Source of the DNA: Sediminitomix flava
GTDB lineage: Bacteria; Bacteroidota; Bacteroidia; Cytophagales; Flammeovirgaceae
DNA length: 64,000 nucleotides
Assembly: GCF_003149185.1 (NCBI RefSeq)
Contig: NZ_QGDO01000005.1
Location: 1-64,000 of the forward strand
Direction of reading: 5' to 3'
The notes beneath the pieces are model-generated. The model ran no database searches. It was not told the origin of the DNA and worked only from the letters and a program-made list of their open reading frames with translations. The position numbers and the translations under genes are program-made. Shown one piece after another: positions 1 to 64,000 of this stretch (positions are counted from its first letter, which is position 1; every line of letters starts with the position of its first letter).

Positions 1-88
1 CACCTCTTCCCATTCCGCACAGAGCAGTTAAGCCCTACCGCGCCGATGGTACTGCCGTAACAGGTGGGAGAGTAGGTCATTGCCAACC
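1..88 (+). rRNA. rrf: 5S ribosomal RNA, 3' part (gene cut by window start)
   Basis: The first ~88 bases read as the 3' three quarters of a bacterial 5S rRNA. The conserved stretch around CCGCACAGAGCAGTTAAGCC, the GCGCCGATGGTACTGC segment and the GTGGGAGAGTAGGTCA arm near the 3' end are all present. The 5' end, and presumably the 16S and 23S genes, lie before the window. The exact 3' end is an estimate. Confidence 0.93.
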
Positions 89-61234: not shown

Positions 61235-62488
61235 TTAGTTCGTTTCTAGCTGTTTTTTCGATTGTATAGAAAGCTGGACTTTTTCGAAAATCCAATAAGA
61301 TACAATTGCTGAAATTACGCCATTTAGCGGTGGAATACCTGGCAAATACTGAGCGGCTAAAACTCCCATTACCCAAGCGACAATTGCCGTCCATCTAATT
61401 TTTTGAAAAGTATTGGATGTATAGTCACAGTAAACGCCTTTTTTTACTAAGAAATAGTCTGCAATAATTACTCCTCCAATAGAAGGAAGCATAGTGTTAA
61501 GGAAACTCAACCAGCCTACAAAGTTATTGTATAACCAGAGAGCAAGTAATGTTCCTAGCACACCATTGATGAGTACAACTATTTTTTTAGGAAGTTGAGT
61601 GATATTAGAAATACCAAGTCCAGAGGCATAAAGAGCATTATCATTCGTAGTCCAGATGTTAAGACCAAGCACAATCATTGCAATTACAATCATACCTTGC
61701 TGCATCAATACATTTGAAATATCAGACTCTTTGTAAAATGCAGCTCCGACTGCTCCAAAAATAAACATCAACGAATTCCCTAAGAAAAAGGCTATCAGAG
61801 TTGTTGATACGGCTGTTTTCTTATTTTTTGAAAATCTTGTGAAATCGGGTGTCAATGTACCTCCACTGATAAATGTAGCAACACACATACTAATGGCTGT
61901 GTACATCGGAATTGTTTCTGTTGGTTGAATATTGAAGAGTGCGTCTGTGCCTCCAAAATCAAATAAAGATTTTCCTACAGAATAACATCCTAAAACAGCA
62001 ATTGAAGGAACAGCAATGAAACTTAGGATTGTCAATGATTTAATTCCGAAAAGTGCTGTAAGTGTCATGACTAAACCCGACACAATAATGATGGTTTGTA
62101 AATCCCAGCCTGTCACTTTTTGAAGAGGTAATGCGAACATCGCAACACCTACACCAAACCAGCCTACTTGAGTCACACTCAATAAAATTGATGGAAGGTG
62201 CGCTCCAACTTTTCCGAATGAATATTTTGCTAAAAGGTGTGTAGATAATCCTGTATCTGCTGAGATATATGCGAGCGATGCTGTGTAAATACCCAGAATT
62301 AAATTCCCGAAAAGTACCGCAATAATAAATTCAGAGGCAGTTACCTTTGTGCCCAATTCTCCTCCTGTCCACATACTAGCAGAAAAGAAAGTGAATCCAA
62401 GCATTAGAACTAGCATTGGAAGGAACCCTTTCTTGTGTGATTCTTTTACTTTGCCTAATGCAAAATCTCGGTCTTCAGTTTGTGACAT
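61235..62488 (-). CDS. codB: Cytosine permease (NCS1 family, CodB-like)
   Basis: A 12-helix NCS1 nucleobase transporter of 417 residues. Family features include FTFFSASMWTGGELGTKV in helix 1, VGWFGVGVAMFALPL in helix 3 and FISGGTLTPDFTRFSKNKK in the helix 6-loop region. The closest known function is cytosine uptake (CodB); other pyrimidines are possible. It is 56 bases after the PRTase gene on the same strand, forming an uptake-plus-salvage unit probably controlled by the structured leader at 63560-63656. No cytosine deaminase gene is in the window. Confidence 0.88.
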   Translation of the reverse strand: MSQTEDRDFALGKVKESHKKGFLPMLVLMLGFTFFSASMWTGGELGTKVTASEFIIAVLFGNLILGIYTASLAYISADTGLSTHLLAKYSFGKVGAHLPSILLSVTQVGWFGVGVAMFALPLQKVTGWDLQTIIIVSGLVMTLTALFGIKSLTILSFIAVPSIAVLGCYSVGKSLFDFGGTDALFNIQPTETIPMYTAISMCVATFISGGTLTPDFTRFSKNKKTAVSTTLIAFFLGNSLMFIFGAVGAAFYKESDISNVLMQQGMIVIAMIVLGLNIWTTNDNALYASGLGISNITQLPKKIVVLINGVLGTLLALWLYNNFVGWLSFLNTMLPSIGGVIIADYFLVKKGVYCDYTSNTFQKIRWTAIVAWVMGVLAAQYLPGIPPLNGVISAIVSYWIFEKVQLSIQSKKQLETN

Positions 62489-62544: not shown

Positions 62545-63531
62545 TTATAGTAGTTTCTGAAGTTTTTTGATTTGTTCTTCGCAGATACTTTTGAGGTTTT
62601 GGTTACCAAATCGTGTTTGGTCAAGTTCTGGAAAACGCTCTTCTAGATATGTCTCAAATGTATCCTTATCACTTAATTTTAATACCTCACTCCAATATTC
62701 TAAAACATCCTCTAGGTATTCTTGAACATGAAATGCCCTTGAACCAGCATCATAAATTGTACACCTTTCAAGGGGGAAACTAGGAGCTTCATATTGTGAT
62801 TCTATAAACTCAGGAGCCATTAAAGAATCTTTTCGAACAAGGTCGGTTCCCGTTATTTTTATTTGGAAAACACTTTCTGGAGTTGGGATTTCAAATCGAC
62901 CTTCCAAGTAACAAAGCATTGTTTTTTGATAGTTTGGAAACGCTTTTCTGAGTTTTTGATCCGTTTCTTCAAGTACATCGTCGGTAATTGGGCCACCATA
63001 GGTGAAAAATGTTAATGATCTTAGCGTTTTGTTTTGCTTTTGTGCTTCTTTAATCATGATTTCCATCCCATGTTTGAGACTAGTTCCTGTCGCGACTACA
63101 TCTCCAATCACAATGTCAGCATCATTTGGGAAATATACTTTTTTGTAATCAGATTCTAGAATATGCCATTCTTCAGAATCTTCTGACACTCGACTTCTTT
63201 GGGCTGAAATAAATGCAGAGTTATGTAGGTTCCATGAGTAAGCATCAGCTAAAGCTTCTCTGAGGTCAAAATTAAGCCCTCCTCTAAGAATATTGTAAAC
63301 TACTGTTTGCTTTTCTTCAAGCTCAAAAACGTGTTCTTCTTTAATTATTTTAAAGAATTTAGAACAGGATTTTCTTAAATTGCGAGTATATTCTATTCCT
63401 AGTACTAATGGATCATTACAAATGGCTCTTGATTCTGGGGTAGACAAGATGAAACGTTCAACATTTGTAGACTTTTCATCTGCAATTTTGTAGAGGGAAT
63501 TTTCTTTCTGATTTCGGATCTCCTGAAGCAT
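62545..63531 (-). CDS. Phosphoribosyltransferase-like protein (UPRT-like core, extended)
   Basis: The central region has a type I PRTase core: a UPRT-like NILRGGLNFDLREALADAY and the PRPP loop DIVIGDVVATGTSLKHG (about residues 165-180). At 328 residues it is over 100 longer than typical uracil PRTase (~210). The extra C-terminal part (from about 235) is helical and of unknown role. Its pairing with CodB suggests conversion of an imported base to its nucleotide, though a regulatory role is possible. Catalytic competence is likely but the base specificity is unknown. Confidence 0.78.
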   Translation of the reverse strand: MLQEIRNQKENSLYKIADEKSTNVERFILSTPESRAICNDPLVLGIEYTRNLRKSCSKFFKIIKEEHVFELEEKQTVVYNILRGGLNFDLREALADAYSWNLHNSAFISAQRSRVSEDSEEWHILESDYKKVYFPNDADIVIGDVVATGTSLKHGMEIMIKEAQKQNKTLRSLTFFTYGGPITDDVLEETDQKLRKAFPNYQKTMLCYLEGRFEIPTPESVFQIKITGTDLVRKDSLMAPEFIESQYEAPSFPLERCTIYDAGSRAFHVQEYLEDVLEYWSEVLKLSDKDTFETYLEERFPELDQTRFGNQNLKSICEEQIKKLQKLL

Positions 63532-63559
63532 GATAAAACATTATTTGTTTTCATAAAGA

Positions 63560-63656
63560 AGCCCTCAAAAACTAAATAAGTTTAGCTTTTGAGGGCTCGG
63601 GCGGAGAAAATAATCTGTTGTTCAGACTATGATCTTTTCACGACCGCTTGCCTGAG
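63560..63656 (-). ncRNA. Structured leader RNA (candidate riboswitch/attenuator) of the PRTase-codB operon
   Basis: On the minus strand, hairpin A (63656-63596) has outer strand CTCAGGC/GCCCGAG, an inner GCGG/CCGC, then GAAAA/TTTTC, and a tip TAGTCTG-AACAA-CAGATTA. Hairpin B (63597-63560) abuts it: 17 bp including one G-U, with a 4-base loop, ending 29 bases before the start codon. Hairpin B has only a weak T tract. On the plus strand hairpin B and the tip acquire A-C mismatches, favouring a minus-strand RNA; the outer stem of A shows the opposite bias. Confidence 0.5.
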
Positions 63657-63706
63657 GGTGCAATTTAGAGAATCTTTACTCGACCTTAAAAAGTCTTAAA
63701 ATTCAT

Positions 63707-64000
63707 TTGGAAAATATAAAGGACGATATAGAACCAATCCGTAAGATTATCCATGTAGATATGGATGCTTTTTATGCATCTGTTGAACAAAGGGATAATC
63801 CAGATTTACGAGGTAAACCAATAGCTGTAGGTGGCGATTCTAAAAGGGGAGTTGTAGCTGCCGCAAGTTATGAGGCACGTAAATTTGGAGTTAGGTCAGC
63901 AATGTCTTCTGTTGTAGCCAAAAGGAAGTGTAAGGATTTGATTTTTGTGAGAGCAAGGTTTGAGGTGTATAAGGAAGTTTCGGGGCAGATTCGGAGTGTT
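63707..64000 (+). CDS. dinB: DNA polymerase IV, 5' part (gene cut by window end)
   Basis: The reading frame gives [18 protein letters not shown], then [29 protein letters not shown] and [14 protein letters not shown], the N-terminal palm/fingers of Y-family translesion polymerase DinB. The catalytic Asp of the HVDMD motif is present. The frame has no ATG before this motif; a TTG at 63707 (then Glu-Asn-Ile) is the nearest plausible start. It is divergent from the PRTase gene and lies beside its structured leader. The rest of the gene is beyond the window. Confidence 0.88.

Follow-up and report, generated by a model that had tools for sequence, protein, structure and literature searches.

A strong, possibly attenuator-like hairpin ahead of a PRTase-codB operon of Sediminitomix flava, and leaders of different design in its relatives

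Introduction

In Sediminitomix flava, the minus strand from 63706 to 63532 spans the gap between a divergent dinB gene and a gene for a PRTase-like protein that is followed by codB, and this short region raises the question of how the expression of the two genes behind it might be controlled. A sequence-only reading had proposed that two abutting hairpins in this gap form the aptamer and the expression platform of an undescribed riboswitch. We evaluated this proposal in the window (the whole stretch of 64,000 nucleotides that was analysed, positions 1 to 64,000 of contig NZ_QGDO01000005.1) and in the leaders of homologous genes. The window itself is probably the more ordinary case, with an attenuator-like hairpin and not a new riboswitch.

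Results and Discussion

The operon and its products

The genes in and around this locus, with coordinates of the window, are as follows:

62545..63531, minus strand: PRTase-like protein of 328 aa, with no Pfam or NCBIfam match at E 0.001 and a predicted model closest to uracil PRTases by VIA Z
61235..62488, minus strand: codB, cytosine permease (NCBIfam NF008241, 577.7 bits)
63707..64000, plus strand: dinB (DNA polymerase IV), divergent, with an uncertain start, running past the window edge
1-88, plus strand: 5S rRNA (Rfam), cut by the window edge

The Pfam and NCBIfam profile searches returned no UPRTase profile for the PRTase, and a search of PDB sequences gave no credible relative, its only matches being two GTPase chains at E 0.4. 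In VIA-align, the model predicted for the protein (pLDDT 94.5) was closest to uracil PRTases (Z 15.8 to 5e38_D, 189 aligned residues, rmsd 2.6), followed by PyrR chains at a Z of about 9 (9.4), whereas Foldseek, ordered by E-value, placed an HPRT-like chain and PyrR chains on top at a TM of about 0.3, with three PyrR chains in the top ten. The modelled fold is thus that of a uracil PRTase (UPRTase), and the protein contains the sequence IGDVVATG, which we take to be a PRPP loop with glycine replacing the usual first acidic residue. Together with the cytosine permease, this model agrees with the pyrimidine connection that had been suggested before, and the operon probably serves to take up a pyrimidine base and phosphoribosylate it. 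The PRTase lacks a Pfam or NCBIfam model, yet has relatives in many phyla.

Two hairpins of unequal strength in the leader

The features of the leader are:

63596..63656, minus strand: hairpin 1, of marginal stability, with no conservation seen
63560..63597, minus strand: hairpin 2, terminator-like, 17 pairs, loop UUAU, ending 28 nt ahead of the PRTase start codon
63552..63559, minus strand: mediocre U-tract UCUUUAUG after hairpin 2, absent from a simple terminator scan
63661..63667, minus strand: weak, hypothetical candidate promoter box TAAATTG, then CACCCTC
63711..63718, minus strand: second hypothetical candidate promoter box TATATTTT

Both hairpins of the sequence-only reading lie on the minus strand where it had placed them, as do the two bases that they share (63597-63596) and the two copies of CCCTCA (63658-63653 and 63595-63590); with the gene calls, they confirm a structured leader ahead of the PRTase-codB operon. 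The two hairpins differ greatly in strength, however. Hairpin 2 was exceptional as minus-strand RNA (-23.7 kcal/mol, z -7.95, none of 200 shuffles as good) and weaker on the plus strand (-19.4 kcal/mol), because a minus-strand G-U wobble turns into a mismatch there, and the claimed preference for minus-strand RNA therefore holds for this hairpin. In a survey of the 387-kb contig, which covered 206 genes with free upstream DNA, it was the strongest of 24 terminator-like hairpins (itself counted) located 6-60 nt ahead of start codons. Considered as a terminator, it passed the caller that was applied to all loci, but was not listed by the simple scan, and its U-tract is modest. Hairpin 1, at the boundaries given earlier, was marginal (-16.3 kcal/mol, z -2.78, 2 of 200 shuffles as good) and folded equally well on the plus strand (-17.1 kcal/mol, z -1.92, 8 of 200 shuffles), and the whole stretch 63706-63590 was unremarkable (z -1.44, 20 of 200 shuffles as good).

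No antiterminator appeared in the predicted leader folds, including the fold with the terminator pairs forbidden. In truncated transcripts, the 5' arm of hairpin 2 paired upstream little beyond three bases (GCC), and forbidding the terminator pairs raised the leader fold from -51.2 to -25.8 kcal/mol (a cost of 25) and left this arm unpaired. Since no rival fold arises under this constraint, the two-base overlap of the hairpins does not make a switch. A leader ORF at hairpin 2 was likewise not found in the window, where four ORFs of 4-13 codons were seen, three of them starting upstream, of which none ends nearer than 24 nt to the hairpin.

Bacteroidota have their own promoter type, and the strict box TAnnTTTG is enriched upstream of genes here (84 forward, against 45 for the reverse complement and 32 for the reversed box); the candidate TAAATTG differs from it. 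A promoter scan also gave a weak -35/-10-like sigma-70 pair at 63568-63540, and the promoter-like sites in 1.6 kb numbered four, against a shuffle mean of 4.2. With dinB divergent, no upstream minus-strand gene ends here, and the 28 nt between hairpin 2 and the start codon would leave little room for a separate promoter.

An Rfam scan of the whole window at the gathering score found only the 5S rRNA, and at 63450-63800 the seven matches up to E 10 were all to microRNA or snoRNA models far under their cut-offs, in agreement with the earlier reading, which had matched the leader to none of the purine, preQ1, TPP or SAM classes. The nearest relative found, L006 of an uncultured Persicobacter (Cytophagales), has a PRTase 57% identical to that of the window, but local alignment of the two leaders gave no significant similarity (194 of 500 shuffles scored as high). 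The L006 leader has a terminator-like hairpin that ends at -75 and is followed by seven T. The sequence TTGCACYCYC, common to both leaders, is notable by eye and was rejected on the result of this alignment and of a 40-nt ungapped comparison in which 48 of 60 shuffles were as good. For the window leader, covariation could draw on a gene that occurs in its own genome only, among 390 of the order, and on this one dissimilar nearest leader.

Distribution of the PRTase-codB pair

A scan of one genome per species yielded 76 PRTase relatives, filed under Bacteroidota, Firmicutes, Spirochaetales, Lentisphaeria, Deltaproteobacteria, Patescibacteria, Woesearchaeota and others. codB follows the PRTase in 49 of the 75 loci with a placeable gene start, the window and L005 included, a count in which some non-linked loci end shortly after the PRTase gene. 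Relatives without codB in the examined flanks occur in Desulfopila, Bdellovibrionales, Patescibacteria and Woesearchaeota.

Close to the window the gene is rare: among sets of 58, 395, 18 and 390 genomes around it, the last drawn from its order, only its own genome carries the gene, besides weak partial matches in G328 and G011. The 59 genomes around Persicobacter have it only in that genome, and in the order of L011 it was found in 4 of 393 genomes at E 1e-20. The gene looks horizontally moved. Plasmids yielded no PRTase relative, and viral contigs neither a relative nor the leader pattern. Phage records contained one relative, L005 (MT837820.1). This scaffold, whose record describes a phage of a human fecal sample, looks like bacterial DNA and carries PRTase-codB with nearly the leader of Oscillibacter (L067).

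Terminator-like hairpins and leader ORFs in relatives

With one caller for terminator-like hairpins used for all loci, a hairpin ending 6-60 nt ahead of the PRTase start was found in 22 of 49 codB-linked and 3 of 26 unlinked loci (Fisher p 0.004, with relatedness ignored); L038, L078 and L079, in which the start is not covered, were left out of these counts. Flanking control genes with free upstream DNA had such a hairpin in 14 of 129 cases, against 12 of 45 PRTase loci under the same filter and 25 of 75 unfiltered; the filter is noisy, as called upstream ORFs, some of them probably spurious, remove 30 of the 75 loci.

Among the Firmicute leaders with a terminator, 11 of 16 had a leader ORF whose stop codon ends at most 10 nt from the base that opens the hairpin, where shuffled leaders gave an expectation of 0.23. 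The 16 include close relatives (L005/L067, L060/L080, L066/L077 and L053/L074), and a seventeenth Firmicute locus with a hairpin near the start, L061, lies outside the 16 and lacks such an ORF, which makes the count 11 of 17. The loci in which a leader ORF stops at a strong terminator upstream of the PRTase are:

L005, L058, L060, L062, L063, L067, L070, L073, L076, L077, L080

These ORFs have 18-26 codons and a purine-rich, Shine-Dalgarno-like stretch, as judged by a loose pattern. L005 and L067 are sister leaders whose ORFs differ at two amino acids and keep a pyrimidine-rich tract.

RNA polymerase pausing in the attenuation of E. coli pyrBI is UTP-sensitive. The Firmicute leaders share with pyrBI the leader ORF that stops close to the terminator, and this closeness makes them resemble pyrBI rather than trp by the spacing rules in part of PMC4824070. 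According to that part, ribosomes repress almost completely a terminator that lies a few bases past the stop codon, and some 10-15 nt of free mRNA allow a hairpin to fold; pyrBI attenuation is described with a leader peptide, pausing and an intrinsic terminator that lies inside the leader gene, and in amino-acid attenuators the terminator lies >20 bp from the leader gene. The signal for the Firmicute leaders might then be UTP or CTP. A more distant relative, L089, has a different leader (1435-1494), in which the inverted repeat AAAGCTTGT/ACAAGCTTT extends as far as the ATG.

A conserved ultrashort leader in Bacteroidales

The PRTase occurred in 54 of the 299 genomes around L064 (filed as Bacteroidales) and in 70 of the 288 around L020 (filed as Bacteroidia), two sets that overlap. 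The Bacteroidales set comprises 109 loci (L011, L015, L020, L054, L064, L068, L075 and L136-L237). From six matching genomes (G1386, G1450, G1638, G1660, G909 and G1013) no leader was taken; the leader of G909 has no C-start, and the stretch inspected in G1013 is not its leader. L130-L135 duplicate named loci, and A6 uses 71 of the 72 distinct leaders, with L140 left out.

A box TAnnTTTG or TAnnTTTA, then three bases and YCCG, was present in 101 of the 109 leaders, with the strict TTTG form of the box in 94; the eight leaders without box and YCCG are L015, L145, L148, L152, L187, L212, L214 and L220. Three others (L011, L146 and L163) have the start but no ATG at a short distance, and 98 leaders were analysed, in which the AUG was assigned by distance and open frame and is therefore a predicted one. 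Folded from the first C, the RNA formed a 5' hairpin of 6-9 pairs in 94 of these 98 leaders, with the very first base paired in 75 and at least one of the first two in 96, at a median of -9.4 kcal/mol (-5 or below in 90). Folded from the G three bases later, the median was -1.9 kcal/mol, and one leader of the 98 reached -5 or below. The last paired base lies 5-8 nt ahead of the AUG in 84 of 98 leaders and is adjacent to it or 1 nt off in 9. Five consecutive T were found in the tails of only 36 of 98, and the common feature is therefore the 5' hairpin beside the AUG, not a terminator.

Inner stems that differ in sequence still pair (CCCGAUAA/UUAUCGGG, CCCGUUA/UAACGGG and CCCGGGU/ACUCGGG), and 88.3% of the cells of the hairpin were paired, against 19-51% for slid partners. 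Covariation in the Bacteroidales hairpin was nonetheless not significant, because its sequence is nearly fixed: of 500 shuffles, 180 reached the observed pairing, 58 the both-side changes and 450 the covariation score. Outside the 98 leaders, L011 (PRTase 52% identical to that of the window) and L163 (48%) have the same start and a longer loop, and their folds collapse from -9.3 to -2.8 and from -9.7 to -3.2 kcal/mol, respectively. L020 has the start and hardly any stem, and L015 has neither.

The specificity of this arrangement was evaluated in 400 kb from each of two genomes, where the box lies upstream of 159 genes and CCC stands at the predicted start in two of them. In one genome this is the PRTase operon. 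In the other it is a gene that looks rpsA-like by eye, and the PRTase of this second genome escaped the count because there are additional upstream ATGs in its frame. On the sense strand of these 800 kb, the covariance model R1 found only the two PRTase leaders (46.0 and 44.6 bits), matches expected by construction as the model includes identical leaders; weak antisense echoes stood at E 1.1 and 1.5.

In pyrC and pyrD, high CTP leads to a start at C, a hairpin and little translation, and low CTP to a start at G with an open AUG. Wilson 1992 and Sorensen 1993 (PMC5730371 references) name nucleotide-sensitive start selection at these genes of E. coli and Salmonella in their titles. The Bacteroidales leaders are similar in the C-run at the predicted start, in the 5' hairpin next to the AUG and in its loss on a start three bases later, but differ in the gene and in the promoter type, and their start is a predicted one. 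Their design would fit such start selection: at high CTP, RNA started at the C would form the 5' hairpin and be translated little, and at low CTP, RNA started at the G would keep the AUG open. A site bound by a protein, either as an operator or in the RNA, is a fair rival for this element, since the conservation of the hairpin sequence exceeds what a switch would require.

How the window leader might act

In the window, neither a leader ORF at the hairpin nor a C-start collapse was found, and what therefore remains is just a strong hairpin ahead of the gene. We suggest, with a probability of roughly 0.45, that the window leader is the attenuator-like region of a pyrimidine-base salvage operon that encodes a UPRTase-like PRTase and a cytosine permease. 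A promoter upstream of hairpin 1 would feed transcription into the leader, where RNA polymerase would meet the very stable hairpin 2 and its modest U-tract just ahead of the PRTase gene. Hairpin 2 would act as a terminator, so that part of the transcripts would stop, or be poorly translated, and the remainder would read through. Read-through may be set by the supply of pyrimidine nucleotides, acting on RNA polymerase or the ribosome, and not by an aptamer ligand; this idea comes from the relatives of the operon, which carry leader devices seemingly of that kind. In favour of an attenuator are the strength of hairpin 2 and its closeness to the start codon, the divergent dinB upstream, the excess of such hairpins ahead of codB-linked PRTase genes, the hairpin of the L006 leader, the leader ORFs at Firmicute terminators and the lack of a rival fold. 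Against it stand the missing covariation, the dissimilar L006 leader, the 27 of 49 codB-linked loci without such a hairpin, the mediocre U-tract, the absence of a terminator from the simple scan, the lack of a leader ORF that reaches hairpin 2, and the -35/-10-like pair at 63568-63540, which could place a promoter within or after the hairpin.

This pair speaks for a different explanation, in which the PRTase promoter lies inside or after hairpin 2 and the hairpin either forms the 3' terminus of a separate small RNA or affects stability or blocks translation; a near-leaderless mRNA would then be possible. Such a promoter would sit partly within hairpin 2, however, and promoter-like sites are at shuffle level here, and we regard this explanation as unlikely. 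Autoregulation of the PyrR kind, in which the PRTase or another protein of PRTase fold would bind the leader RNA and decide termination, appears rather improbable. In Bacillus, PyrR acts on leader termination ahead of pyrR-pyrP, and the window operon resembles that arrangement in its PRTase fold followed by a pyrimidine permease, in a terminator-like leader hairpin, and in having PyrR among the structural neighbours of its protein; but the model is nearer to uracil PRTases by VIA Z, the protein also occurs without codB in examined flanks (e.g., in Desulfopila and a Patescibacterium), and no common RNA motif was seen across the leaders by eye.

Start switching of the pyrC kind would have transcripts begin in the C-run 63658-63656 at high CTP and form hairpin 1, and begin at a downstream purine without hairpin 1 at low CTP. 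The sequence TTG-CAC-CCTC, where hairpin 1 begins, does resemble the Bacteroidales TTTG-TAT-CCCG, but moving the start from 63657 to 63652 shifted hairpin 1 just from -16.6 to -14.9 kcal/mol, where the Bacteroidales leaders collapse, the window has no strict promoter box, and R1 did not hit the window at any E up to 5 (its best on this contig, at E 0.084, lies elsewhere). The start-shift fold and the R1 search led us to reject a C-start hairpin in the window, and start switching there is about as improbable as PyrR-like control. A riboswitch with hairpin 1 as aptamer, hairpin 2 as platform and a pyrimidine, PRPP or a nucleotide as ligand is very unlikely. The abutting hairpins with their two common bases, the salvage genes downstream and the lack of an Rfam match speak for it, whereas the dissimilar leader of the nearest relative, the marginal hairpin 1 with its equally stable opposite strand, the lack of an antiterminator and the different build of homologous leaders in other lineages speak against it. 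Conservation in homologous leaders, by which the sequence-only reading had itself proposed to judge the aptamer, is lacking as far as one close leader pair tells, and the riboswitch class was rejected for want of conservation, an antiterminator and an Rfam match, with that one pair a thin basis.

The preferred reading, an attenuator-like leader, places the window beside pyrBI, with which it shares a stable terminator-like hairpin in a pyrimidine-operon leader, but from which it differs in lacking a leader ORF at the hairpin, in phylum and in promoter. The pyrC/pyrD switch was not found in the window. In E. coli, the operon partner of codB is a deaminase, and in the window operon it is a PRTase. 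The transporter family is the same in both, and nucleotide-pool control at initiation would be a further likeness; the titles on E. coli codBA give UTP-dependent reiterative transcription and start-site switching (PMC6245113, PMC5730371) and name no hairpin or terminator. Reiterative starts are described as frequent in nucleotide-metabolism genes of S. agalactiae in part of PMC4448216.

Taking all lineages together, we propose tentatively that the PRTase-codB pair could be run by several unrelated aptamer-free leaders: a CTP gauge of ~30 nt in Bacteroidales, a leader peptide whose translating ribosome keeps a terminator from acting in Firmicutes, and a bare strong hairpin in the lineage of the window. 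If this is true, a gene pair scattered over several phyla would have a different nucleotide-sensing leader in each for the same job. Through the Bacteroidales element, start-site switching would extend to scores of species in a phylum that has a promoter type of its own, and nucleotide-pool control at initiation in Bacteroidota would have a form that is short and testable. Within open-access PMC (subscription papers and preprints lay outside the scope), no paper was recognised as describing a PRTase-codB leader or operon. The one link between riboswitches and a cytosine permease found there is a putative C. difficile cytosine permease that stands among amino-acid genes in a table where T-boxes are mentioned, as far as that part of PMC11477304 goes.

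Similar starts at other genes

The extended motif TAnnTTTGTATYCCGRW was considered as a general sign of pyrimidine genes and rejected. It has 18 places in 14 of 80 genomes, against 5 for a reversed control. By eye, most of these places lie within coding sequence; the promoter-like ones, too few for a conclusion, precede the PRTase operon (2) and carA-like, pyrophosphatase-like and ATP-grasp-like genes. The rpsA-like gene mentioned above (L243, at about 8743 and upstream; minus strand, 106868-108743 of the joined G1259 contig) has a predicted C-rich 5' hairpin, CCCGUUG/CGACGGG. At the carA-like gene of L106 (by eye; promoter at about 1500), the same TTTGTATCCCG start is present, and the early part of the coding sequence contains UUUUCGGG, which is complementary to the 5' CCCGAAA.
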